Shown here piece after piece: positions 16,788 through 59,107 of a DNA stretch of 64,000 nucleotides. Source of the DNA: Planctomycetota bacterium (lineage in GTDB: Bacteria; Planctomycetota; Brocadiia; Brocadiales; Bathyanammoxibiaceae); NCBI GenBank assembly GCA_016209685.1, contig JACQVQ010000008.1, positions 193,778 to 257,777 on the forward strand. The letters run 5' to 3'. A program made the position numbers and the translations under genes. The notes under the pieces are model-generated. The model had not been told where the DNA came from and searched no databases. It worked only from the letters and a program-made list of their open reading frames with translations. The first letter of the stretch is position 1, and every line of letters begins with the position of its first letter.

Positions 16788-18929
16788 ATGCTTCGCCCCG
16801 TAGTCTTGTTCTTGCTGTGTCTATTTACACCCTCGGTGGCAGTCCCCCTTGACAGTAGTGTAGGGGCTCAAAATTTTGAGCCCCTGCTAGTTGGACACGA
16901 CCTCCAGGTGGAACTGGACCCCCAGGCCCACAGCCTTAAGGCCAGGGACATCATCAGCCTGGAGGTAGGTGAGGAGGAGACGGTATTCTTATCCTTCAAC
17001 ACCACCCTGCAGATACACTCCGTAAAGATTGGCCCCCAGCTAACAGGGCAACTCGGCATTGGTGTCCCTGCTACCCTGTCAGAGGTCAGCCCGGTCCGCG
17101 TGGCGAGCGGGGACAGGGACGGTATTGAGGTATCTATACCTCCTGCCCTCAGGGGGAAAAAGATATTCCTTGTGGTCTCATACTCCGGGGTGCTTTACGA
17201 ACCCCTGGACCCCTTCAATGAGCCCCCGGCCACCATTACCCCGGAGTTCGTATATCTATCTCCCAGTGCCCACTGGTACCCCGACCCCCCTAACAGTATG
17301 GGGGTATTCAGGGTAACGGCCACCGTACCCAGAGGCTACGAGGTGGTAACCCATGGGAGTCTGGTTGAGCGAAAGGAGGAGGGGAGTACCGCCTCTTTCC
17401 TCTGGGAGGCAGACTACCCTACCGAGTCCTGCTACCTTATTGCGGCCCCTTACAAGGTAACCCATTATAGACACGGAGAGATAGACCTCTATACCTACTT
17501 CTTTCCAGAGGAACAAGGACTGTCGGAGAGTTACATGGAGGCCTCCAAGGGGTATCTGGACATGTATCAAAGACTTCTGGGGCCTTATCCCTTCAGTAAG
17601 TTTGCTGTGGTGGAAAACCTCTTCCCTACCGGCTACGGCATGCCCTCTTACACGCTCATCGGCAGGCAGGTATTGAAGATGCCCTTCATCGTCCATATAT
17701 CCCTGGGACACGAGATAGCCCACAGTTGGTGGGGGAATTGCGTTATCCCTCACCCTGCGCACGGGAACTGGTGCGAGGGGCTGACCTCCTATCTGGCCGA
17801 CTATTACTATAATGAACTCATCGGGCCAGGACCGGCCGCAGAGTACCGTAGAGACCTCCTCAGGTCCTATGCCAGTTATATAAACGAGGAAAATGACTTC
17901 GCCCTGGAGGGTTTTACTGGCGGTTCGGTGGGCAGGGCCGAGAAGGCTATCAGGTCTGTCCTTTACGGCAAGGCCGCTATGGTCTTTCACATGCTGAGAA
18001 ATATAGTGGGGGACGAGCACTTCTTCCAGGCACTAAGGGAGCTCTACGTGGATAAGAAGTGGGAGTTAACTACGTGGGAAGATTTCAGATTGGTCTTTGA
18101 GGGCCAATCGGGCCAGGCACTGGATTGGTTCTTTAAACAGTGGGTCTATCAAAAGGGGGCCCCTTCTCTAGGGCTTGAAGGTGTTAGTCCGCTCAAGACG
18201 GAAGACGGGGCCTTTCAGATAGAGTTTCATCTAAGGCAGGCAGCCCCCCCGTATCGTCTCCAGATACCCGTGGTCCTCACCCACGGGGCCCAAGAGAAAA
18301 ATACGCAACCCTCCGTAGTGGAGATGGATTCCCAGGTGGGGACGTTTTCCCTGGAGAGTCCTTCCAGGCCGGTGAGCCTGTCCATTGACCCCGATTCCAA
18401 CCTCTTCCGCCGGCTACACCCCATGGAACTCGCCCCAACACTGGATAGGGCATTAGGAGGGGAGGACCTCTTGATAGTAAGACCGTCAGGAGGGAGTACA
18501 AAGCTCCTGGAGGGATATGAAATGACTGCCCATCTGCTTATGCCCCACGGGGAGGTAAAGGCGGATAAAGAGGTGTCGGAGTCTGACCTCGCCAGGGGCC
18601 TCTTAATCCTGGGAGGGCCGGAGAACAATCTCCTGTTCGGGAGATTCCCTAACCTCCTACCTAAGGGTCTCCTTTTAGCGGAGGAGGGGTTCACATTTCG
18701 GGATAAGAAATACGAGTCGGGTGCCTCTATACTCTTAAGCCTCCATAACCCTTTCCATAGAGAAAAGACCGTTTGTATATTTCTAAGTCGGGAGCCGGAG
18801 GCCATAAGGGCTACTGCCCGGAAGCTTATACACTATGGTAAATACAGCTACGTAATTTTTGTAGATGGTAACAGTGTGGATAAAGGGACGTTTACGGAGG
18901 AGATAAATCCTTTAGTGCATTATTTCTAG
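16788..18929 (+). CDS. Exported M1-family zinc aminopeptidase-like protein
   Basis: A signal peptide (MLRPVVLFLLCLFTPSVAVP) is followed by an M1 N-terminal beta domain and the catalytic domain with HEIAHSWWGN (zinc His at residues 308 and 312). The third zinc ligand is probably the Glu of NWCEG, 17 residues after the second His by my count, one shorter than the usual spacing. A C-terminal region of about 160 residues (from DRALGGEDLLIVRPSGG) is separate from the peptidase and unassigned. The stretch SVGAQNFEPLLVG near residue 27 is coded by a GGGGCTCAAAATTTTGAGCCCC palindrome. The stop codon starts a GTAGGGGC hairpin. Confidence 0.85.
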   Translation: MLRPVVLFLLCLFTPSVAVPLDSSVGAQNFEPLLVGHDLQVELDPQAHSLKARDIISLEVGEEETVFLSFNTTLQIHSVKIGPQLTGQLGIGVPATLSEVSPVRVASGDRDGIEVSIPPALRGKKIFLVVSYSGVLYEPLDPFNEPPATITPEFVYLSPSAHWYPDPPNSMGVFRVTATVPRGYEVVTHGSLVERKEEGSTASFLWEADYPTESCYLIAAPYKVTHYRHGEIDLYTYFFPEEQGLSESYMEASKGYLDMYQRLLGPYPFSKFAVVENLFPTGYGMPSYTLIGRQVLKMPFIVHISLGHEIAHSWWGNCVIPHPAHGNWCEGLTSYLADYYYNELIGPGPAAEYRRDLLRSYASYINEENDFALEGFTGGSVGRAEKAIRSVLYGKAAMVFHMLRNIVGDEHFFQALRELYVDKKWELTTWEDFRLVFEGQSGQALDWFFKQWVYQKGAPSLGLEGVSPLKTEDGAFQIEFHLRQAAPPYRLQIPVVLTHGAQEKNTQPSVVEMDSQVGTFSLESPSRPVSLSIDPDSNLFRRLHPMELAPTLDRALGGEDLLIVRPSGGSTKLLEGYEMTAHLLMPHGEVKADKEVSESDLARGLLILGGPENNLLFGRFPNLLPKGLLLAEEGFTFRDKKYESGASILLSLHNPFHREKTVCIFLSREPEAIRATARKLIHYGKYSYVIFVDGNSVDKGTFTEEINPLVHYF

Positions 18930-28300: not shown

Positions 28301-29443
28301 AATGTTACCCATTATGAGGCTAGAGAGGTGTTAGGCAAGAATATAGACCTCTTGGGCTCACCCAATAGCCCAACGGGGTGGCAGGAAGAACTCTTGGGGG
28401 GTACTTTTGGCGTCGGAGTATGGGAAGGAGAATTGCTTTTTAAAAGGAAGGATGGAGAGGAGTTCCCAGTTTACCTATTCACCTCCATTATTAAAGAAGC
28501 CGACAAAGAGCCACCAGCCATGGTGGTTGCCTTCAGGGACATTGCTGAAAACAAGAGGTTGCAGATGGAACTACTGCAATCAGAAAAGATGGCCGCCATA
28601 GGGCAGCTTGCTGCCGGGGTGGCCCACGAGATACGCAACCCTTTAAACATCATCGGCAGTTCTATATACTATCTGAAGGAAGTCCTTCCGGATGCCCCCA
28701 CTAACGCCCAGGCAGGCCAGCCCGGTGCCGATAGGGTGCAGGGCCAGGAGGACAACATAAAAGACCACCTTAGGATAATTCAGGAGGAAATCCGCCGTTG
28801 TCAGAGGATTATAACCCATCTCCTGGACTTCTCTCACAGGGCCAAACCGGAATCAGAAGAATGTGACCTTAACAGGCTTATAGAGGACACCCTCTTCCTG
28901 GTGGGTAAAGAATTGGAAGTTAACAAAGTAAAGGTGGTCAAGGTCTTTCAGTCCCTCCCTCCCCTCTATCTCAACGTGGATGACATGAAACAGGTACTCT
29001 TAAATGTTATCCTCAACGCCAGGGACGCTATGCCCAGGGGAGGCATCCTGAAGATTATTACTCAACTCGGTACTCCAGATACCGTAGAAGTAGTCTTCAG
29101 CGACACAGGGCAGGGTATACCTCAGAACGCGCTAAAGAACCTGTTCCTACCCTTTTACACCACAAAAGAACCAGGGATGGGTACGGGACTCGGACTCTAT
29201 GCCGTCCATTCTGCCGTTAAACGGGCAAAGGGTTCCATAAAGGTGGATTCTACTCCTGGACGTGGCACCACCTTCACTATCAGCCTGCCTTTATCAGGAG
29301 CGGCCCAGCCGCACCCACCTGCCCTGAACCAGAATGGTTCAGGGCCTGCGGTGTTTGATACCACAGGGTTGCTGTCTGGCACTGGGGACAAGGTCTCAGG
29401 GTACGTAGGTCCAGAGGGTATAGAAGATGACAGGGAAAGCTAG
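25349..29443 (+). CDS. Large hybrid-sensing histidine kinase (Cache-HAMP-PAS-PAS-GAF-PAS-PAS-HisKA-HATPase)
   Basis: This 1364-residue kinase has a periplasmic Cache-like sensor between membrane helices at about 9-28 and 303-321, HAMP (to about 375), PAS domains at about 384-510 and 545-665, a GAF domain (about 680-835), and two more PAS domains (about 835-950 and 957-1075). A normal kinase core follows: GVAHEIRNPLNI (phospho-His), NVILNARDAM, DTGQGIP and GTGLGLYAVH. The partner NtrC-type regulator overlaps by 17 bp. Two insertions in linkers, AQAGQPGADRVQG and PPALNQNGSGPAV, derive from dispersed repeats. Signal unknown. Confidence 0.93.
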   Translation: MFKSVKTRLIVLFLLLAFLPLLALRFIAYPHALGALKTEALKNLENVGIKQAEIVTLWMRERVRDVKVAAQNPLVIQGTHITPRDKEFLLLSALLNTIKESYGYKEVLISDAEGQVRVSASEHLRGTNIFDSEGFRRSLAGMAFIYEVFPRSGAGSLTTKDDLPCMIFSSPVTSGNKVLGVLIFQMELRGINSLMKTVNLGVSGETYVIDDKGLTLTELKHWPRESGSIGQGINNPLDGKPTLAVQECLKGQEGFDAEGYLNYAGAEVFGFWQWIPEFKLGILAEVGKDETLRVAYDLKVMVNRIIFGLSVSIFLVAFYMGKKISRPILSLTALTRRMAQGDLTQRAEITTGDEIGELASSFNQMVTAIGDKTKRLEETTNFLNSILLSSTEYSIMALDHQGRIQTFNEGARKMYGYEPEEVVGRHLIYSLFDTEGNGRLEEALSLTEKTGRFEIDLQGRRKSGESFPAHLTLTLRRGESAFLTVGGASPSGGTITSEGRPIGFVAISRDVTRQKALEAEVQRYTSTLERMVEERTQALRATEQRYRSLFDATKDAVFICDGEDRFLDINQAGAELFGYSSKEEVLNQKFINTLYVNPEDGKSLRRIMDGYGFMKDFEVELKRKDGTSITALMTCDLRVNDQEEVIGYEGIIRDVTEKKRREREKDIINNANKTIASSLELKEVYKAVSLELGKFIDFDRTSITLLLGENNVIEYIVFTKGQDSSQLSEGVVFLKGGSATEAVINSGRPVIVPDTSKGGFFTDNIFHSEGILSRLSFPLEYKGRGIGALNFGSKKINNFTQEHVELLMQVAPQLAIAIENSNLFCRIRDSEEKYRDLIENAPEMIHQLDAQGRFLDVNKTELERLGYSCQEMLKLGLEDIVPREYKKGVKRHLARVVEMGHDRAEAVFLTKFGQWMYVEMDTTGLRDPLSGRFIHARSFVRDITERKKAEKELLRLAHTIRSIGECVVIADKEGKISFVNKAFENVTHYEAREVLGKNIDLLGSPNSPTGWQEELLGGTFGVGVWEGELLFKRKDGEEFPVYLFTSIIKEADKEPPAMVVAFRDIAENKRLQMELLQSEKMAAIGQLAAGVAHEIRNPLNIIGSSIYYLKEVLPDAPTNAQAGQPGADRVQGQEDNIKDHLRIIQEEIRRCQRIITHLLDFSHRAKPESEECDLNRLIEDTLFLVGKELEVNKVKVVKVFQSLPPLYLNVDDMKQVLLNVILNARDAMPRGGILKIITQLGTPDTVEVVFSDTGQGIPQNALKNLFLPFYTTKEPGMGTGLGLYAVHSAVKRAKGSIKVDSTPGRGTTFTISLPLSGAAQPHPPALNQNGSGPAVFDTTGLLSGTGDKVSGYVGPEGIEDDRES

Positions 29444-31564: not shown

Positions 31565-34500
31565 ATGATGAAGAAGCTGTCCTTATTTCTTATATTGTAT
31601 CTCCTCCTTTTTTCTTATCCCTCTGCAGAGGCAGGGGAGGGGCTATCACCCAAGGCGGAGGTCTCACCTGGTAAAAGACAGGACTCAATCCAGAAGTCTC
31701 CTTTCTTGACGTCTGGTCCGCCTAAGCCTGCCCTGCACCGTTCTGGTGCAGGGCCTGCCCTTGAGCGAAGCGAAGGGGCGGAAACCGCCCCGTCACTGGA
31801 GGAGTCAAGGGCTAGGGCAGAAGAGGCCAGACTCCAGGCGGAATCTGTAATGGCCTCCTATGAGAAGTCCATAAAAGACCTGGAGATGGAACTCCGGAGG
31901 GCCGAGGAAGAATCCATCAAGACAATGGCTGAAAAGGAGGCCCTGGTTGCCAGGAAGACCATTGGGCTGGAATTGGCCGTGGCTTCTCAGCTAGAGGAGG
32001 CAACAAGGGAAAGGGGCCAGCTTTTAAGGGATAGACTCCAGGTCTTAAGGGAGAGTCTCCGTTCCGAGGAAGAAGTCCTGAAGGCCAGGAATGATACGGT
32101 GACCATATTAGAGAAAGGAACCAGACTAGCAGATAAAGTGGTGGCTATCCCGATTGAAAGGGTGTCCATGGTACGGAAGGAAGTGGAAGTTGAAGAGGCC
32201 TACCTCCAGTCTGCCAATGCCGGACTGAGGGAGAAAGAGTCGTATTTAGCGGGGCTGAAGGTGAAATTTAAAGAAGTGCAAGCGAAAATCAAGGAGGAAG
32301 AGAGACGGCTCCGAGGAGACCTCAAGACCCTGGAAGAACTCCCTTTTGGAAAAGGGGAAGGGCCACAACGTTTTGTCTATCAGAGCAGACTCCTGCTCCA
32401 GACACGCCTGGCAAACATAAATGATGAGATGGCCATAGGAGAGGAAGAGATAAAGTTAGCTGAGAGAGGACTGGGAAAGGCAAGGATAGACTCTTTTAAT
32501 GTCCAGCTTAGAGTGGCGTTGTTAAAGGAGGAGGTCTCACTCCTTGAAGGGAGACTAAAGGCGGAAGAACTCCAAAAAAAGGAGGAAGAGGCCGAGACAG
32601 CCCGCAGGGCTGAGGAAGAAAGAAAGAAGGAAGCAGAGGTAGAAAAGGCGGCCGCCCATAAGGAGGAAGCGGAGGCCTTAAAAAAGGCAGGAGAGTTGGA
32701 CCAACAGCAACGGGACGCCGTCTCTCCCGAGCGAAGACGGTCGCTGGAACTGGAATCCACTATCTTTACACTCCAGGGGGAGATAGCCAAGAAAAAGGAC
32801 ACCCTCGCTACTGAGAGGACGAGGTTGTTTGAGGATAATGCCGAGTACAAGAAGCTGGTCAGGGACGTACACACAATATTGGGCGGGGAGAACACCCCCT
32901 CTGAGATAAGGGAAGAGATGCCCCTGCTAAAGGACGGGACGGCACGATGGGAAGAGAAATTAGAGGCAGTGGAGAACCTGTTAGAGGCGGTACAGAAGGA
33001 GAGGTCACTGCTAGCAGAACAGCTACAGCAAGCCCGTTCTGAACTGGTTGCACCTCCCGGTGAAAGCCCTGAAATCATAAGGGAGGCTGAAGTCCTTAAA
33101 GATACGACCCTGGCCAGTAAGTTGATGGCCCATGCTCAAGAAAAGGTCAAACTACTGGAGGAGGAAGGGCGGCTTATAACTGCATGGGTCACAAGGATAG
33201 AGGAGAGGAGGGGAATTGTTCGGGAGGGGCTTCAACTGCTTGCCGATGCTACGAGGGGACTCTCCGGTATCAGTGCCGCTAATATATGGGTCGGGCGGGA
33301 GTGGAAGGCTAGCTGGTTGGCCACGAAGGGGGGGCTGGCGAGACTCCTCTCCCCCAGGAAGGGTTCAGACATTATTACCTTCATAGAGGACCCTGCCCAG
33401 AGGAGTATACGCACGTCAATGGCCGGAGTGGGTGTACTTGCCCTCATTACGGCGGCAGTCTTTGGTTGGTATTATTGCAAGAGGTGGTGTCGGCTAAGCC
33501 TCAAGAGGTTAGAAGAGGCAGGTTCCCAGAATTATATAAAGGCCGCCCTACTGCCTGCCCTCTTCAGGGTCTTACAGGGTGGGGTTACCTTGTGGTTGGT
33601 CCTGGGTCTATGTTTTGGCATAGCGTCCCTGTTTGAGATTGAAGGCCCCCTTACGCACTCTCTAAAGTATGGGCTTATAGTCTTCTCCATTTATAAAGTA
33701 CTACATGGTTTTCTGGTAGAGGCTGTAAAGCCAAAGGGGTGGGGCAGGCCACTCCTGACCTTACCCCCTCCCCTGGCCTGGCACGGCTATCTTACCCTCC
33801 ATACAATCCTACTCTACTCAGCCATCTTTATCACCATTATAGGGGTTCTGGGTTCTTTTGGGCCCAGGACCCAGGAAATACTGTGGAGGGTGTACTCCCT
33901 CAGTGTCCTTGCCCTCTTTATCTGGTTTGTGGCCCCTAAGTCAGTGTTCCTGGCACTATTATCTTCACCCTCGGCGGAGGTGGTCTCCGCCTCAGGTGTG
34001 CCCGATGTCAAAAAAGTGGCCTCGCCACCCGGAACCAAGTTGAGGAAGTTTCAGAGGGGATGCGTCCATACCGTCCATCCACTTACTATAGCCTTCCTTG
34101 TACTCCTTGTAGTCTTAGACAGTCTAGGCTACACCTCTATGACCTATGCCCTTATAGGCACCGCCATAAGTTGCATGATTACCCTGGCATCTGTGGCAGT
34201 GGCAAGGAAGCTCATAACCACCTTTATATTAGATAGGCTGGCCCGCAAGAGGCCCGTTGGAGAGGATGAAGGCGTAGTAGCCTTCAAGGTTACCAGGGGT
34301 ATAGTGGATTATTCTTCAGTTATAGTATCTATTATTGTAATAGTTAGTTTGTGGGTGGCTACCCTTGTGGACTTTGCCAGCACACCTGCGGCCCCGGAGC
34401 CCTTCAAGGGCTTCGCCTCGGAGATAGAAAATGTCCTGAGGATAACGGCAGGGGTATTGGGGTACAAATTGGGCCTGGGCGAGGGGGGATACACTACCCC

Positions 34501-38655: not shown

Positions 38656-39705
38656 GTGTCAGAAAGCCACTCCTTTATAGTTTCCCAATCCCTTGAAGGT
38701 ATCCGCCTCCTGGAGTTCCTGTCCACAAAACTCCCTCTATATTCTATTAATACCCTCAAAAGTCTGATAGAAAGAGGCTCAGCAAGTGTAAACACAAAGA
38801 GGGCGAGTGCCGGCCTGGCCTTAGGGGAGGGAGATGAGGTGGCCATTTTTATCCCGGAGGGCACCAGGAGGTACGAACCCCACCCTCTACCACTGGAAGT
38901 GCTCTTTGAGGACGGACACGTCCTTGCGGTAAACAAGCCTGCAGGGTTGGCAGTGATTCCGGAAAGGGATGAGCGTGTAGGGGCGGGTTTGAAACCCGCC
39001 CGTACAGGGGCAGGGGTTACTCCTGCCCAAGATGAAGGGGCAGGTCTGAAACCCGCACCCACATTTATCAGTGGGCTTCTACATTACCTCCAAAACCTCT
39101 CCCCCCTCTCAAGGGGCAAAGGGCTAAGGCCCAGGCTTGTCCACAGGTTAGATAAGGACACCAGCGGTGTACTCCTGGTGGCAAAGGACCCGGAGGCGGA
39201 GAGACACCTCTCTGGACAGTTTGAAGACAGGGTCGTAGAAAAAGAATACGTTGCCCTCGTGGACGGCAGGGTAGAAAGGGAAGAGGCTACCATAAATCTC
39301 CCTCTGGAAGAGACCACCCGTGGTAAGATGAGGCCTAACCCTCGTGGAAAAGAGGCCGTAACCCAGTACAGAATTCAGGAGCGATTTGACGGCTTCACCC
39401 TCCTGAAGCTCATGCCAAAGACTGGCCGCACACACCAGATAAGGGTACACCTGAAGGCCATCGGCCACCCCCTCTCCATAGACCCACTGTATGGCAACAG
39501 GTCTGCAATCTTCCTCTCCAGCCTGAAGGCCGACTATAAGCCAAAGAAAGGGCAGACTGAGACCCCCATTATCTCCAGGCTCACCCTCCATGCCCATAAG
39601 ATAACCTTTGAGCCTCTTCCTGGGGTGGGGAAGATAACGGCAGAGGCCCCCATGGCTGAGGATATGGACAGGCTGATAAGGGTGTTGAGAAAATATAGGA
39701 AATGA
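38656..39705 (+). CDS. rluD: RluD-family 23S rRNA pseudouridine synthase
   Basis: An S4-like N-terminal part (EFLSTKLPLYSINTLKSLIE) is followed by the pseudouridine synthase domain with the catalytic Asp in HRLDKDTSGVLLVA and the KTGRTHQIRVHL motif. The start is GTG with AAAGG before it. Residues about 107-136 (containing GAGLKPARTGAGVTPAQ and GAGLKPAPT) are encoded by three tandem GGGGCAGGTTTGAAACC-type hairpins at 38976-39062 and separate VIPERDE from LLHYLQN; they are absent from the family core. Function as a large-subunit synthase is likely; exact target not provable. Confidence 0.9.
   Translation: MSESHSFIVSQSLEGIRLLEFLSTKLPLYSINTLKSLIERGSASVNTKRASAGLALGEGDEVAIFIPEGTRRYEPHPLPLEVLFEDGHVLAVNKPAGLAVIPERDERVGAGLKPARTGAGVTPAQDEGAGLKPAPTFISGLLHYLQNLSPLSRGKGLRPRLVHRLDKDTSGVLLVAKDPEAERHLSGQFEDRVVEKEYVALVDGRVEREEATINLPLEETTRGKMRPNPRGKEAVTQYRIQERFDGFTLLKLMPKTGRTHQIRVHLKAIGHPLSIDPLYGNRSAIFLSSLKADYKPKKGQTETPIISRLTLHAHKITFEPLPGVGKITAEAPMAEDMDRLIRVLRKYRK
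38976..39062. repeat. In-frame triple hairpin repeat inside rluD
   Basis: GTAGGGGCGGGTTTG-AAACCCGCCCGTAC, then CAGGGGCAGGGGTTACTCCTGCCC, then GGGGCAGGTCTGAAACCCGC (each with partly paired arms) make up 87 bp, that is 29 codons, keeping the frame. Confidence 0.85.
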
Positions 39706-52924: not shown

Positions 52925-53008
52925 TGTCAGTAGACAGGTTACAGGATACAGGTTACAGGGTAAAGATTTTTACTTGTCTCCTGTTACCTGTCACCTGTTT
53001 CCTAATCT
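52925..53008. repeat. Inverted heptad array
   Basis: AGGTTAC, AGGATAC, AGGTTAC, AGGGTAA units pair with TGTTACC, TGTCACC, TGTTTCC units around 52968. Confidence 0.8.
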
Positions 53009-54109
53009 CTAGCATATCCTCGGCAGTGGGTCGGAGGCAGGCATATCTATAACCCTTGTGCCTCCCACCAGGGTCTTCATGAAGACCCTGCCCGCTGGGC
53101 CTTTTACTACCTCCCCAATAATGGCTGAGTCTTTCCCAAGGGGGTGCCGCCTGAGGACGTCCAGGACTCTGCCTGCGTCGGCCTCCGGGCAGACTATTAC
53201 TACCTTCCCTTCATTGGCCAGATACATGGGGTCAAGTCCCAATAGCTCACAGGCCGCACTGACCCCCTCCCTTACGGGGATAGACTCTTCAAACAGCAGT
53301 ATACCAAAGTCCCTCCCGTTTGCCACCTCGTTTAGCGTGGTGGCCAGTCCGCCCCTGGTGGGGTCTCGCATGAACCTTATATCTTTGCAGGCCCCCAGGG
53401 CCTCTTGTATCATCCCGCCCAGGGGGGCGCAGTCGCTTAGTAGGGGCGTATTGCAATACGCCCCTACTTCTGGCAGTTCTTTTCTCGCCGCAAGGATGGC
53501 CACGCCATGGTCCCCCAGGGTGCCGCTGAGGAGTATCTTATCTCCGGTCTTTATCCTATCCGGGGAGATACAAAGGGAGTCTTCCACAACGCCTATACCG
53601 GCGGTATTTATGTATAGCCCATCTGCCGAACCCTTCTCTACGACCTTGGTATCGCCAGTAGAGATTATCACCCCAGCCTCCACGGCCGTCTCTTTCATGG
53701 AACTCACTACCCTCTCCAGCAGAGACATCTCCAGCCCTTCCTCTAATATGAAGGCAGTGGACAGGAACAGGGGCCTGGCCCCCATGACGGCCAGGTCGTT
53801 CACCGTCCCGCTTATGGCCAGCCTTCCTATGTCTCCCCCTGGGAAGAAGAGGGGTTTTACCACGAAGGAATCCGTGGTGAAGGCCAACTTGATTCCGGAG
53901 TGTGGATTGCGGATTGCGGAATGCGGAGTTAGAATTCCGCATCCCGAATTCTGCACTTGCAAATTCCCTGGTAGCTCTACTATTGCAGAGTCGCCAAATT
54001 GAGCGAGAATGGGGTTCTGGAAGTGGTGGAAGAATATGTCCTTTATCAGTTCATGCGAGAGCTTCCCGCCGCTACCGTGGCCGAGGAGTATCTTCTTATC
54101 GCCTGTCAT
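53009..54109 (-). CDS. hypE: Hydrogenase maturation protein HypE
   Basis: HypE dehydrates the thiocarbamoyl group made by HypF to give the CN ligands of the active site iron. Seen are GHGSGGKLSHELI at the N-terminus, TTDSFVVKPLFFPGGDIGRL, MRDPTRGGLATTLNE and the C-terminal PRIC with the modified Cys. At 366 residues it is longer than usual because of two in-frame repeat peptides: residues about 48-71 (NSGCGILTPHSAIRNPHSG) and about 215-224 (VGAYCNTPLL). Both lie in loops between conserved blocks. It overlaps hypD by ATGA. Confidence 0.94.
   Translation of the reverse strand: MTGDKKILLGHGSGGKLSHELIKDIFFHHFQNPILAQFGDSAIVELPGNLQVQNSGCGILTPHSAIRNPHSGIKLAFTTDSFVVKPLFFPGGDIGRLAISGTVNDLAVMGARPLFLSTAFILEEGLEMSLLERVVSSMKETAVEAGVIISTGDTKVVEKGSADGLYINTAGIGVVEDSLCISPDRIKTGDKILLSGTLGDHGVAILAARKELPEVGAYCNTPLLSDCAPLGGMIQEALGACKDIRFMRDPTRGGLATTLNEVANGRDFGILLFEESIPVREGVSAACELLGLDPMYLANEGKVVIVCPEADAGRVLDVLRRHPLGKDSAIIGEVVKGPAGRVFMKTLVGGTRVIDMPASDPLPRIC
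53440..53467. repeat. In-frame GTAGGGGC palindrome inside hypE
   Basis: GTAGGGGCGTATTG-CAATACGCCCCTAC is a perfect 28-bp palindrome inside the coding region. Confidence 0.9.
53895..53968. repeat. In-frame heptad array inside hypE
   Basis: GATTGCG, GATTGCG, GAATGCG, GAGTTAG, AATTCCG, CATCCCG, AATTCTG, CACTTGC: eight 7-bp units coding about 24 residues without breaking the frame. Confidence 0.85.
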
Positions 54110-55215
54110 TTGCTTTCCCCCTGATATTTAAACCACGCCGCACAGGTGCCCTCGCTGGAGACCATACAGGGGCCTACGGGGTGGCTGGGGGTGCAGGCCC
54201 TGCCGAAGAGGGGGCAGTCCGGGGGTGTCTTTACCCCCCTGAGCATATCGCCACACAAGCATCCTTTTGGTTCTCTTGTCTTGGGTGCCGGGATGGAAAA
54301 GTGCAGGGCGGCATCAAACCTCTGGTATCTGCCCCTGAGTCCGAGACCACTCATGGGGACTACCCCGATACCCCGCCATTCTGCGTCGCAGGGTTCAAAG
54401 ACCTCCTCAATAACGGCCTGTGCCCTGGGATTACCTTCGGGCCTTACTACCCTGGAGTACTGGATTTCTACCCTGGCTTCTCCCCGTACTATCTGGCCAA
54501 GGAGCATGTATATTCCATGGAGGATGTCCAGTGGCTCAAACCCGGCAATAACGCATGGTATACCAAACTCCCTGGCCAGGAACTCATAGGGTCTGGAGCC
54601 TATGATGGTACTGACGTGGGCAGGGCATATAAAACCCTGTAGGGGCACGTTGCAACGTGCCCCTACATCTTCCACCAGGGACCTCATCACCTGGGGCATG
54701 GTCTTGTGGGAACAGAGGACGAAATAATTCCCTAACCCCTTTCTGTCGGCCTCCAGCACGGAGGCGGCAATGGTGGGGGCAGTGGTCTCAAAGCCTACAC
54801 CCAGGAATACCACCTTCTTGTCGGGGTTAGCCTCTGCCATGGAGAGGGCGTCTGCGGTGGAGTAGACCACCTTTACGTTGCCCAGGGCCAGCCTCTCCAG
54901 GCTTGACTCCGAGCCTGGGACCTTGAGCATGTCTCCAAAGGTGCAGATGATTACCCCGGGGACGTGGGCCAGGGTAATGGCCTGGTCTATGTAGCTTGTG
55001 GGGGTGACACAGACGGGGCATCCTGGCCCTGATAGCAGTCTGAGGTTGGCAGGCAGTAGCCCCTTTAGTCCGTATCTGAAGATGTTCATGGTATGGGTAC
55101 CGCAGACTTCCATAATAGTGTATCCGCCTGAGGCGGACCCATCCAAGAGGGAGGAAATCCTCTGGGCCAGTCCCCTGGCCAGTTCCTTATCTCTGAACTC
55201 TGTCATGTATTTCAT
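54106..55215 (-). CDS. hypD: Hydrogenase maturation protein HypD
   Basis: HypD is the Fe-S scaffold on which the Fe(CN)2CO group is built, with HypC and HypE. Motifs: MEVCGTHT, SGPGCPVCVTP, GFETTAPT, FICPAHVS, GFEPLDIL and the C-terminal 4Fe-4S cluster region GCLCGDML, DCPLFGRAC and GPCMVSSEGTCAAW. Residues DVGARCNVPLQG (about 184-193) are encoded by a 28-bp palindrome at 54639-54666, and DGSASGGY near residue 26 by a CCGCCTGAGGCGG palindrome. Confidence 0.95.
   Translation of the reverse strand: MKYMTEFRDKELARGLAQRISSLLDGSASGGYTIMEVCGTHTMNIFRYGLKGLLPANLRLLSGPGCPVCVTPTSYIDQAITLAHVPGVIICTFGDMLKVPGSESSLERLALGNVKVVYSTADALSMAEANPDKKVVFLGVGFETTAPTIAASVLEADRKGLGNYFVLCSHKTMPQVMRSLVEDVGARCNVPLQGFICPAHVSTIIGSRPYEFLAREFGIPCVIAGFEPLDILHGIYMLLGQIVRGEARVEIQYSRVVRPEGNPRAQAVIEEVFEPCDAEWRGIGVVPMSGLGLRGRYQRFDAALHFSIPAPKTREPKGCLCGDMLRGVKTPPDCPLFGRACTPSHPVGPCMVSSEGTCAAWFKYQGESK
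54639..54666. repeat. In-frame GTAGGGGC palindrome inside hypD
   Basis: GTAGGGGCACGTTG-CAACGTGCCCCTAC is a perfect 28-bp palindrome, with the same ends as the hypE copy but a different inner part. Confidence 0.9.
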
Positions 55216-55218
55216 GGC

Positions 55219-55467
55219 TTAAATCCTGTCATGTCCGGGTGTAGGGGCGGTTCGCGAACCGCCCCTACTTAGGGTGGACATGAACTGGAGGGTCTTCCTA
55301 GCCACTTTTTCATCCAGTTTCTCTATGGCGTAGCCTGCATGGACAATGACGTAATCCCCCACCGAGACACTATCCAGTAGAGACAGGTTTATCTTGCACC
55401 TTAAGCCCCCTAACTCTCCAACCGCTGGGTCTACCTCCACTACCTTCATAGGCACGCCCAGGCACAT
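55219..55467 (-). CDS. hypC: Hydrogenase maturation chaperone HypC
   Basis: HypC carries the Fe(CN)2CO group to the large subunit using the Cys of its N-terminal MCLGVP, which is present; GDYVIVHAGYAIEKLDE is typical. The normal protein ends near residue 65; the tail RGGSRTAPTPGHDRI is encoded by the palindrome at 55241-55268. It shares one base with the hypF stop (TAATG). Confidence 0.95.
   Translation of the reverse strand: MCLGVPMKVVEVDPAVGELGGLRCKINLSLLDSVSVGDYVIVHAGYAIEKLDEKVARKTLQFMSTLSRGGSRTAPTPGHDRI
55241..55268. repeat. GTAGGGGC palindrome at the hypC 3' end
   Basis: GTAGGGGCGGTTCG-CGAACCGCCCCTAC, 28 bp, a third version with the same ends as those in hypD and hypE. Confidence 0.9.
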
Positions 55468-58064
55468 TACTTTGCCCCCTTTAAAGGGGGCGGATACCGC
55501 CTGTCTGCAATTACTGCCTGGCCCAGGCTGAGGCCGCCATCGTTGGTGGGCACCTTGTGGTGGATATAGACCTCAAATCCCTCGCCGACAAGGATCCCCT
55601 CACAGAGCCTCAGGAGGAGGACGTTCTGAAAGACTCCCCCGCTAAGGACCACCCTTTCCTGCCCGCTCTCTCCCCGTATCCTCTTACAGACCTCTCCTGT
55701 CATAAGGGCAACGCTGTAATGAAACCTGGAAGAAATCTTTGTGATTGGTGTACCTTTACATAGGTCTTTGAGTATTCCTTCAAACAGGCCACGCCAGCCT
55801 ATGTGGAGTGTGGAATGGGGAGTGTGGAGTGCGGAATTTAACTCCGCATTCTGCATTCCGCATTCCGCATTTAGGATGTTCCGTACTCCGCATCCCAAGT
55901 GTGCCCCTACCGCCTCTCTCAGCTCAAAAGGGTATGATATATCAGTTCCTTCGTCCGCTCCGCCTGAGGCGGATTCAAGTTCAATAGCGGCCTGGCCCTC
56001 GTAGGTTATTACCCCCCTTATACACAGCAGGGCCGACACACCGTCAAAGAGCCTCCCCATGCTGGAGGTCAGGGGTGAGTTTATTTTCTTATCCATCATC
56101 TCCTTTACAGTAGGCCACTTCCCCTTATCCAATCTCCTTACAAATTCTATGTCCGTCTTTAGAAAGTCCTCTCCAAAGAGGTGGTAGAGGTAGCTGAGGG
56201 CCATACGCCAGGGCTCCTTTATGGCCTTCTGTCCGCCTGGCATGGGGACGTACTCTAGATGCCCTACCCGGCGGTAACCGTGGGGGCTTGCCAGGAGGAA
56301 TTCCCCTCCCCAGAGGTGACCGTCCTCGCCGTAGCCCAGGCCATCAAAGGCGATCCCTATGACCTCTCCTTCCAGGCCGTTCTCGGCCATACAGCTTACT
56401 ACGTGGGCATGGTGGTGTTGTACAGGTATTTTTGAGATACCGTCCTCTAGTCCAAGGGCGTACTGGGTGGAGAGGTAATCGGGGTGCATGTCGTAGGCCA
56501 CTATATCTGGTTCCAGATAGAGCATCTTTTTAAAGCGTTCTATGCCCAGCTGGAAGGCCTCCAGGGTCTCCAGGTTCTCCAGGTCTCCGATGTGTGGGCT
56601 AAGGAAGGCATGGTGTTTCTTGCCGATACAGAAGGTATTCTTAAGCATAGCCCCACAGGCCAGGACGTCCTTCCCGAATGGAGAGGCTAGTCTAAGGGGA
56701 TAAGGTGCGTAGCCCCTGGCCCTCCTGATAAGGATTGCAGAATGCGTTCCGCGTGCGGAATGGGGAGTGCGAAGTGCGGAATTTAACTCCGCATTCCGAA
56801 GTCTGCAATCCGCATTTGGAATGTTCCGCATTCCTAATTCTAGATTGGCCCTCACCACGGAGTCGTCACAGCGGGTGAAGATGGGCCTGTTAGAGACCAG
56901 GAAGTAATCGGCAACGTCTTTAAGACGTGCCAGGGCCTCTGAGTCCTCAAAGAGGATGGGCTCGTCGGTAACGTTTCCACTGGTCATGACCAACAGGTCT
57001 CCAGCGTGACGTAAGAGGTAGTGATGTAAGGGTGTGTAGGGGAGCATAATGCCCAGTTCCTTGCAACCTGGTGCCACTCCTTCGGCTATCTTAGCCCCTG
57101 GCCCTGCACCGTTCTGGTGCAGGGCTGGCCTCTTTTCCAGTAGGACGATGGGCCTCTTGGCTGAGAGGAGGAGTTGGGCCTCCTGGGGGCCGATGCGGCA
57201 GACCCCTCTTGCCCCCTCCAGGTCTCTGGCCATGAGGGCGAAGGGTTTCTCACAGCGGCGTTTCCTATTCCTCAATTCAGATACCGCAGGGGACTGGGTG
57301 GCATCTACTGCCAGGTGATAACCCCCTATGCCTTTGATGGCAAGAATCCTGCCGCCTTTAAGGAGGCTTACGGTCTGCCCAAGGACGTCCCCTGGTAGTT
57401 CGTTCCCACGGCAGTCTAACAGTCTCAACTGTGGGCCGCATCTGGGGCAGGCATTGGGTTGGGCATGGAATCGCCTGTCCTGGGGGTCGTGATACTCCCC
57501 GGAGCAATCCTGGCACATAATGAAGGCGTCCATAGTCGTATTGCCCCGGTCGTAGGGGATGTCTCTAGCGATGGTATAGCGTGGTCCGCAATGACTGCAA
57601 TTGATGAATGGATAGAGGTATCGGCGGTCGGTGGGGTCAAAGAATTCCTTAAGGCACTCCTCACAGGTGGCTATATCAGGAGCTACCAGTGCCTCTTTGT
57701 GGGTTGGGTCCGCTTTATGCGGACTATCCTTTATCTCAAACGTGGTGTAACCTAGAGGGGGCAGGTCCTGCCAGTGGAGTTCTTCAATAAGGGCCTGGGG
57801 TGGAGGCGAGTCCAACATGGAGTTGATGAACCTGTCCAGGTGTTCCCTTTCTCCCTCAATGTCAACGGAGACCCCGTTGGTATCATTCTGTACATAACCC
57901 TTGAGGAGGAGGCGGGTGGCTAACCTGAAGACAAAGGGACGGAAGCCGACTCCCTGGACGATGCCTCTGGTGATGATTAGTCGCCTCTCCACTCTTGGGA
58001 GAGACAGGCCCTGTACCGATGAGGTACAGGGCAGGGGAGGGTGGCCCGTTCCGGAAGGAGACAA
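55467..58064 (-). CDS. hypF: Carbamoyltransferase HypF
   Basis: HypF makes the carbamoyl group for the CN ligands. Domains in order: acylphosphatase (GIVQGVGFRPFVFRLA), two zinc fingers (CEECLKEFFDP, CSHCGPRYT, CQDCSGEYHDP, CPRCGP), YrdC-like (LLKGGRILAIKGIGGYHL) and Kae1-like (VQHHHAHVVSCMAE, DGLGYGEDG). At 865 residues it exceeds the usual 750-770 because of three repeat peptides: about 314-322 (PALHQNGAGP), 407-444 (DCRLRNAELNSALRTPHSA) and 723-754 (ECGMQNAELNSALHTPHS). The start is TTG at 58064; GTG just before ERRLIITRG (VERRL) is an alternative because the first 23 residues also include a repeat. Confidence 0.94.
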   Translation of the reverse strand: MSPSGTGHPPLPCTSSVQGLSLPRVERRLIITRGIVQGVGFRPFVFRLATRLLLKGYVQNDTNGVSVDIEGEREHLDRFINSMLDSPPPQALIEELHWQDLPPLGYTTFEIKDSPHKADPTHKEALVAPDIATCEECLKEFFDPTDRRYLYPFINCSHCGPRYTIARDIPYDRGNTTMDAFIMCQDCSGEYHDPQDRRFHAQPNACPRCGPQLRLLDCRGNELPGDVLGQTVSLLKGGRILAIKGIGGYHLAVDATQSPAVSELRNRKRRCEKPFALMARDLEGARGVCRIGPQEAQLLLSAKRPIVLLEKRPALHQNGAGPGAKIAEGVAPGCKELGIMLPYTPLHHYLLRHAGDLLVMTSGNVTDEPILFEDSEALARLKDVADYFLVSNRPIFTRCDDSVVRANLELGMRNIPNADCRLRNAELNSALRTPHSARGTHSAILIRRARGYAPYPLRLASPFGKDVLACGAMLKNTFCIGKKHHAFLSPHIGDLENLETLEAFQLGIERFKKMLYLEPDIVAYDMHPDYLSTQYALGLEDGISKIPVQHHHAHVVSCMAENGLEGEVIGIAFDGLGYGEDGHLWGGEFLLASPHGYRRVGHLEYVPMPGGQKAIKEPWRMALSYLYHLFGEDFLKTDIEFVRRLDKGKWPTVKEMMDKKINSPLTSSMGRLFDGVSALLCIRGVITYEGQAAIELESASGGADEGTDISYPFELREAVGAHLGCGVRNILNAECGMQNAELNSALHTPHSTLHIGWRGLFEGILKDLCKGTPITKISSRFHYSVALMTGEVCKRIRGESGQERVVLSGGVFQNVLLLRLCEGILVGEGFEVYIHHKVPTNDGGLSLGQAVIADRRYPPPLKGAK
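55803..55897. repeat. In-frame heptad array A inside hypF
   Basis: GTGTGGAATGGGGAGTGTGG, AATTTAACTCCGCATTCTGC and ATTCCGCATTCCGCATTTAG stretches in 7-bp phase; coding strand gives NAELNSALHTPHS. Confidence 0.85.
56732..56845. repeat. In-frame heptad array B inside hypF
   Basis: GATTGCAGAATGCG, GTGCGGAATGGGGAGTGCG, AATTTAACTCCGCATTCCG and AATGTTCCGCATTCC stretches; same orientation and reading frame as array A, coding NAELNSALRTPHS. Confidence 0.85.
57101..57125. repeat. In-frame GCCCTGCACC hairpin inside hypF
   Basis: GCCCTGCACC-GTTCT-GGTGCAGGGC; an identical copy lies at 31730-31754 in the channel gene and a variant at 29321-29345 in the large kinase gene. Confidence 0.9.
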
Positions 58065-58989: not shown

Positions 58990-59107
58990 TTTACCACGCG
59001 GGTAGGGGCGTATTGTCGTGCCTGAGGCAGACCCGCCCAGGGCGGACAATACGCCCCTACTATACAGGTTTTACCATGCCGGTAGGGGCAGGTTTCAAAC
59101 CTGCCCC
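58990..59107. repeat. Repeats between the radical SAM gene and the helical protein gene
   Basis: A GTAGGGGCGTATTGTC / GACAATACGCCCCTAC inverted pair (59002-59058) has a CCTGAGGCAG / CCCAGGGCGG piece inserted in its centre, followed by GTAGGGGCAGGTTTG-AAACCTGCCCCCTAC (about 59081-59110). Confidence 0.8.

Follow-up and report, generated by a model that had tools for sequence, protein, structure and literature searches.

Four adjacent hydrogenase-maturation genes of an uncultured Brocadiales planctomycete, hypC, hypD, hypE and hypF, hold short mobile DNA palindromes within their reading frames. Coordinates are positions within the window, the whole stretch of 64,000 nt that was analyzed. The genes and the elements located in or beside them are as follows.

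53009–54109, minus strand: hypE, an open reading frame with a Pfam AIRS/AIRS_C match
53440–53467, minus strand: double-foot REP palindrome in hypE, core GTATTGCAATAC, read as EVGAYCNTPLL (residues about 214–223)
about 53884–53957, minus strand: heptad (GCGGAAT-type) fold-back array in hypE, within a loop missing from nearly all homologues
54106–55215, minus strand: hypD, an open reading frame with a Pfam HypD match
54639–54666, minus strand: double-foot REP palindrome in hypD, core ACGTTGCAACGT, read as VGARCNVPLQ
55123–55137, minus strand: TCCGCCTGAGGCGGA palindrome in hypD, read as SASGG
55219–55467, minus strand: hypC, an open reading frame with a Pfam HypC match
55241–55268, minus strand: double-foot REP palindrome in the C-terminal tail of hypC, core GGTTCGCGAACC, read as SRGGSRTAPT
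55467–57992, minus strand: hypF, an open reading frame with a Pfam HypF match and a likely start at 57992
55802–55897, minus strand: heptad fold-back array in hypF, read as NILNAECGMQNAELNSALHTPHSTLH
55959–55973, minus strand: TCCGCCTGAGGCGGA palindrome in hypF, read as SASGG
56732–56840, minus strand: heptad fold-back array in hypF, situated between the part resembling Sua5 and the part resembling Kae1, read as RNAELNSALRTPHSA
57101–57125, minus strand: 25-bp hairpin GCCCTGCACC-N5-GGTGCAGGGC in hypF, read as PALHQNGAGP
58008–58032, minus strand: 25-bp hairpin of the same family as that at 57101, a short way upstream of the probable start of hypF

The perfect 28-bp palindromes that the earlier note had placed in hypE, hypD and hypC were all found, as were its single heptad array in hypE and its two arrays and hairpin in hypF. 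The two TCCGCCTGAGGCGGA palindromes (55123–55137 and 55959–55973) and the hairpin at 58008–58032 had been overlooked. All four genes contain palindromes, as had been claimed, but the hypC copy follows the Pfam domain (residues 1–63 of 82) and lies in the tail, so that the fold of this protein is uninterrupted.

These palindromes are very probably parasitic DNA of the genome that came to rest in reading frames and persisted wherever an extra loop was tolerated. Five matches to GTAGGGGC...GCCCCTAC were observed in the window compared with none in 100 dinucleotide shuffles, and exact copies numbered 200 in 2.02 Mb of the same genome compared with none for the reversed pattern, that is, a high-copy, dispersed family. 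The hyp palindromes are part of this genome-wide invasion, and their cores recur at unrelated loci (ACGTTGCAACGT 25 times, other cores 3–8 times). About two thirds of the GTAGGGGC palindromes were common to both congeners compared, and their movement is therefore slow or old. A literature search on the letters GTAGGGGC returned unrelated papers only. Local template switching in replication could also make palindromes in place, without mobile elements, and would fit their perfect symmetry, the replacement of native sequence, and the nested or core-switched palindromes seen at one site. Local events are nevertheless unable to explain a few sequences recurring at many unrelated loci, or the matching copies linked to RAYT genes that are described below, which makes this a highly improbable origin; template switching may contribute to repair or core switching.

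The GTAGGGGC family belongs to the "double-foot" REPs that accompany TnpA_REP/RAYT subclass 2.4, as that subclass is set out in PMC6006769, where double-foot REPs and REPs in frame within tnpA_REP genes are reported. The REPs described there have a GTAG 5′ foot and a CTAC 3′ foot, with a cognate RAYT of about 194 aa bearing NH[IFV]H, WQ and YIxNNP, and the system here agrees in these features. The palindromes at 53440, 54639 and 55241 likewise form hairpins with feet GT[AG]G at the 5′ side and C[TC]AC at the 3′ side. Unlike the REPs described there, the copies here show perfect or nearly perfect symmetry and carry one of several interchangeable cores, and unrelated conserved genes contain many of them.

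Three RAYT genes of the subclass 2.4 type were found in the same genome; each contains, in frame, a palindrome subtype of its own, and both RAYT motifs and an in-frame internal REP are present. The motifs are MPNHVH, WQ and YIINNP in L039, MPNHFH, WQ and YIINNP in L303, and NHLH in L304; L039 matched the REP_Tyr_transpos model NF047646 at E = 6.7e-19, below the curated score cut-off. Two of the genes have a flanking copy with a core identical to the internal one (GAACGGCCGTTC for L303, GGTTCGCGAACC for L304), and both the internal and the 3′-flanking copies of L304 are the same 28 bp as the hypC palindrome. Across 36 loci of this RAYT clade, elements lay near the gene 28 times, compared with an expectation of 6.4 based on the remainder of these loci (P about 3e-10, with related loci counted as independent). 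A first RAYT search had returned mainly IS200-type genes without REPs, and the link emerged once close relatives and the L269-like clade were searched. The hypD core ACGTTGCAACGT and the hypE core GTATTGCAATAC were not seen with any of the three clade members found in the assembly, which is 94.6% complete.

The three GTAGGGGC palindromes would owe their movement to subclass 2.4 RAYT transposases (TnpA_REP, HUH-tyrosine) resident in the genome, most likely via folded single-stranded DNA during replication, with L304 as a putative mobilizer and GTAGGGGCGGTTCGCGAACCGCCCCTAC as its putative single-stranded substrate. The pairing of the hypC palindrome subtype with a specific RAYT gene of the same genome makes REP mobility in coding DNA testable. 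The heptad arrays, 25-bp GCCCTG hairpins and 15-bp SASGG palindromes are other short dispersed families; they had no GTAG or CGTC foot tag, and no link of the heptad, 25-bp GCCCTG/CAGGGC or 15-bp families to any transposase was found.

Congeners with empty and filled sites amount to a natural experiment. Identity of the hyp DNA to congeners was about 94% (5–6% divergence). Relationships among the three congeners are close to a trichotomy (19, 20 and 24 informative sites), which gives gains and losses in the genus no direction. Empty sites, which the earlier note had proposed to look for, were observed, and in hypF they are precise (27 bp and 93 bp). The 93-bp net insert is the 55802 array, which is present in G002 and missing from G001 and G006. 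The 27-bp net insert at 57101 fits a 25-bp hairpin plus a 2-bp CA duplication; this site is empty in G001 and G002 and holds a decayed copy in G006, and the hairpin at 58008 is likewise missing (27 bp) in G002. The 56732 array varies in length among congeners, with a net change of 39 nt and unrelated sequence in G006. The TCCGCCTGAGGCGGA palindrome in hypD is shared with G002 and not with G001, and that in hypF is shared with G001 and not with G002 or G006.

Other sites were filled differently. The hypE 53440 palindrome also occurs in G001 with one mismatch, and the site of the hypE heptad array holds different inserts across three related genomes, with G001 and G006 carrying other inserts. 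The hypD 54639 palindrome replaces native KALGLQ of G006 with a net gain of 12 nt, and at this site G001 has the core ACGGCGCGCCGT. In general, GTAGGGGC elements displace about 10–16 bp of native sequence and leave no clean target duplication, and a simple insertion model therefore does not fit. Relatives had either no loop or a different insert, and in none was the same loop written in unrelated codons. An assembly artefact was ruled out, since separate genomes have sites in common and differ at others. A high similarity between the ends of GTAGGGGC palindromes and their target sites was set aside because that test includes homologous flank.

Frame and phase were examined in stretches of sequence (1.13 Mb of this genome and 0.64 Mb of G001), using genes called by a home-made gene finder. 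Among element-class indels, 30/33 in coding sequence were multiples of three compared with 33/81 elsewhere (P = 7e-7); for all indels the counts were 45/51 and 48/103. Intragenic GTAGGGGC copies (n = 29) were read in phase 0 in 19 cases and phase 1 in 10, with none in the phase that reads TAG, and the 15-bp palindrome read SASGG or SALGG in 33/39 intragenic copies. The in-frame state reflects filtering by selection; it does not follow from how long an element is. The earlier claim of frame preservation accordingly stands for net lengths, which are multiples of three, and not for the 28-bp palindrome itself. Fixed element length was rejected as the cause of in-frame status for most families, as non-coding indels are of any length; the 25-bp hairpin, which makes 27 bp with its 2-bp duplication, may be an exception.

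These constraints bear on translational bypassing, by which the ribosome would skip the palindromes in mRNA and make proteins without foreign loops. Hairpins in many conserved genes do recall Magnusiomyces capitatus mitochondria, for which such skipping is reported (mentioned in PMC6649704). Neither a multiple of three nor an open phase would be required for bypassing, and yet coding sequence shows both constraints strongly and sequence outside it shows neither; the inserts also take the place of native codons, and the peptide favored by the 15-bp copies consists of small residues. We regard bypassing as extremely improbable.

Selection for function is a further explanation, in which the hairpins would tune the stability or translation of hyp mRNA, or the loops would serve Hyp complexes. 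All four adjacent genes contain several families, and many REPs are transcribed and have been proposed as RNA elements (PMC3733652). Against this, the same hyp sites gain, lose or swap inserts at the modest divergence given above, and GTAGGGGC copies are depleted in genes overall (29/111 intragenic, though predicted genes make up 85% of the DNA), so that a functional role is very unlikely. Under the parasite reading, elements would strike many places, and the intragenic survivors would be those with a net length that is a multiple of three, no stop in the phase used, and a location in solvent loops. They would then come and go between species, in some cases lost precisely and in others swapped for a member of another family.

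The location of the inserts was examined in alignments and structure models. Relatives and solved structures of HypE, HypF and HypD were without the loops, in agreement with the foreign in-frame inserts that had been proposed, and at the 53440 region this HypE has 5 more residues (15 nt) than most homologues. AlphaFold models were confident except at the main inserts, which were low-confidence loops between confident core elements: residues 211–220 of HypE at the 53440 insert (pLDDT about 59), residues 53–67 of HypE at the heptad-array loop, and residues 697–725 (55802 array), 387–416 (56732 array) and 292–296 (57101 hairpin) of HypF (pLDDT <50 for each of these four). Retained inserts would be translated as disordered loops, and they apparently form floppy surface loops. 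Divergence rich in synonymous changes suggests that Hyp proteins with inserts retain function.

The GCGGAAT heptad is stop-free on both strands and reads AECGMRN or IPHSAFR. Seven is coprime to three, so whichever phase of a strand is read, a tandem heptad gives the identical cycle of seven residues. An array may therefore come to lie in a gene, whatever its phase or orientation, without bringing in stops, with only net length left to chance. It is conceivable, if rather doubtful, that these fold-back arrays make up a kind of mobile repeat, tolerant of coding sequence, that has yet to be described. The TAACTGA heptanucleotide repeats of Beggiatoaceae (PMC4679880) are also tandem 7-bp repeats dispersed through the genome, but they are arranged as direct repeats, lie mostly between genes and contain stops when read forward, whereas the arrays here fold back on themselves, and the stop-free heptad type accounts for most of the intragenic ones.

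Taken as a whole, the locus is a multi-family case of an already known phenomenon, mobile palindromes hidden inside proteins. Intragenic GTAG REPs are similarly 20–40 bp palindromes in frame in conserved genes of several species, including the PVC superphylum (PMC3733652); here, several non-GTAG families share the same genes, and empty sites in congeners permit a quantitative frame test. The parallel drawn earlier with Rickettsia holds, in that palindromic repeats lie in frame in conserved protein genes, and the sequences are indeed unrelated to RPEs and of several families together. Rickettsia RPEs are 105–146 bp (PMC2229807) compared with 15–93 bp here, and the hyp elements work like RPEs but are not classed with them; RPE-4 and RPE-6 have been counted among CGTC REPs (PMC3733652). 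In a free-living planctomycete lineage, mobile palindromes can thus steadily give conserved enzymes short foreign loops, and the occurrence in metagenomic proteins of peptides like VGAGLKPAPT or NPHSAFR probably marks translated repeats rather than domains.

The hypE, hypD, hypC and hypF genes, all on the reverse strand, each matched their own Pfam family, and when the sequence of the window was re-checked, every palindrome that the earlier note had placed inside them was present at its coordinates. Two 15-bp palindromes had been overlooked and are added here (all reverse strand).

53440 (hypE), 54639 (hypD) and 55241 (hypC), 28-bp GTAGGGGC...GCCCCTAC palindromes
53895 (hypE), 55803 and 56732 (hypF), heptad fold-back arrays
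57101 (hypF), hairpin
55123-55137 and 55959-55973, 15-bp palindromes

The window covers positions 193778-257777 of contig C8 of the own genome (G000), whose lineage is placed in the Brocadiales. The GTAGGGGC...GCCCCTAC pattern was matched five times in the window (none in 100 shuffles) and 200 times in 2.02 Mb of the own genome (none for the reversed pattern). Copies numbered 161 and 162 in the congeners, 7-93 in other family members and 0-49 in the rest of the order.

The hyp DNA was aligned with two congeners, G001 (Planctomycetes bacterium RIFCSPHIGHO2_12_FULL_52_36) and G002, and one family member, G006. The proposal that these are foreign sequences was borne out by empty sites: 27 bp at the 57101 hairpin are missing in G001 and G002 (G006 has a decayed version of it there), and the 93-bp array at 55803 is present in G002 and lacking in G001 and G006. 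The hypE 53895 site is filled by heptads in the window and, in both G001 and G006, by other inserts that are palindromic or of low complexity, and G006 HypD has KALGLQ in place of the hypD palindrome. In the hyp region the congeners form a near-trichotomy. Judged from these alignments, the hyp elements are read as inserts, not ancestral loops.

The hypD palindrome core differs between the window and G001 (ACGGCGCGCCGT against ACGTTGCAACGT). Such core switching between two congeners, in which the palindrome ends are the same and the symmetric core differs at the same site, suggests ectopic conversion or re-insertion, and was seen at the following sites.

Window 54639-54666 (reverse strand, hypD) against L018
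L142 2785 against L202
L143 4467 against L216

In a truA-like pseudouridine synthase gene, the same loop is filled by a heptad array in one of the two species and, in the second, by a GTAGGGGC palindrome (L036 16420 against L184 5082).

Homologue alignments (39 other sequences for HypE, 29 for HypF and 28 for HypD) restricted the loops to this lineage; some distant proteins do have insertions in these variable loops, but unrelated ones, and solved homologue structures are without the loops of this lineage. The idea of added loops also agreed with AlphaFold models, in which low-confidence segments coincide with the main inserts. In HypE (mean pLDDT 89), values fall below 50 only at residues 53-67, the heptad insert, and are ~59 over the palindrome (211-220); in HypF (mean 86), values below 50 at 292-296, 387-416 and 697-725 correspond to the hairpin and two heptad inserts, and also occur at the C-terminus. 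Within the hyp genes, changes fall preferentially at third codon positions, which is consistent with purifying selection on translated Hyp proteins.

The in-frame status of the elements is a filter. Stretches of the own genome (1.13 Mb) and G001 (0.64 Mb) were compared, of which ~0.25 Mb aligned, and 154 indels of at least 12 bp were placed relative to genes predicted with a home-made gene finder. Multiples of three made up 45/51 indels inside genes vs 48/103 elsewhere, and 30/33 vs 33/81 for recognisable elements. Only 29 of the 111 exact GTAGGGGC palindromes lay inside predicted genes, although genes were 85% of the sequence, and none of the 29 was in the TAG-reading phase; 33 of the 39 intragenic TCCGCCTNAGGCGGA copies read SASGG or SALGG.

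Period-7 arrays numbered 208, vs 0-15 for each of ten other periods tested. A tandem heptad encodes one seven-residue cycle, identical in every phase, and the GCGGAAT type, stop-free on both strands, made up 10/15 arrays inside genes vs 19/193 outside (P = 1e-6). A heptad fold-back array of the ACAGGTT/AACCTGT type fills the space separating hypE from the neighbouring gene (52928-53003); read in one orientation, this type contains stops, in agreement with an intergenic preference.

Two sites of the 25-bp hairpin fit insertion with a 2-bp CA duplication. The GTAGGGGC elements replaced ~10-16 bp of native sequence for a net gain of 12, 15 or 18 bp, a pattern that fits no simple insertion model. 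From sequence comparison, their mobiliser is very probably a RAYT. Three RAYT genes of the own genome belong to a single clade, with motifs of TnpA_REP subclass 2.4; each contains an in-frame REP palindrome of its own subtype, and the following two also have an identical flanking copy.

L304:1505-2107 (contig C8), RAYT gene
L303:1379-2133 (contig C14), RAYT gene

The L304 gene takes its TAG stop codon from the downstream flanking palindrome, and its palindrome and that of hypC are an identical 28 bp. Across 36 loci of the clade, with related loci counted as independent, 28 elements lay at the RAYT gene vs 6.4 expected. Other repeats with a GTAG tag flank two more RAYTs (L038 and L040).

Double-foot REPs and in-frame REPs within tnpA_REP genes, the traits by which PMC6006769 defines subclass 2.4, are shared by the own-genome RAYT/GTAGGGGC system, and conserved genes containing GTAG and CGTC REPs, including Rickettsia RPE-4 and RPE-6, have been listed (PMC3733652). 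Because these traits match, the GTAGGGGC family belongs to a kind already described. In the REP literature compared, we found no case in which a single set of enzyme genes holds at least four unrelated families side by side, none in which one family takes the place of another at the same loop, and no coding-compatible heptad fold-back arrays; the hyp case therefore counts as a variant of a known phenomenon.

Elsewhere in the window, one palindrome is nested in the centre of another at 59003-59060 (GTAGGGGCGTATTG, a TGCCTGAGGCAGACCCGCC-like insert, then CAATACGCCCCTAC), with comparable nesting in other own stretches (e.g. L142 9102 and L165 3811). Further in-frame elements sit in other genes of the window, at 31730-31754 (ALHRSGAGPALERSEGAE, mechanosensitive-channel-like protein), 38978-39006 (AGLKPARTGAGVTPAQDEGAGLKPAPT, RluD-like protein), 29321-29345 (C-terminus of a histidine kinase) and 16860-16887 (N-terminus of a peptidase).
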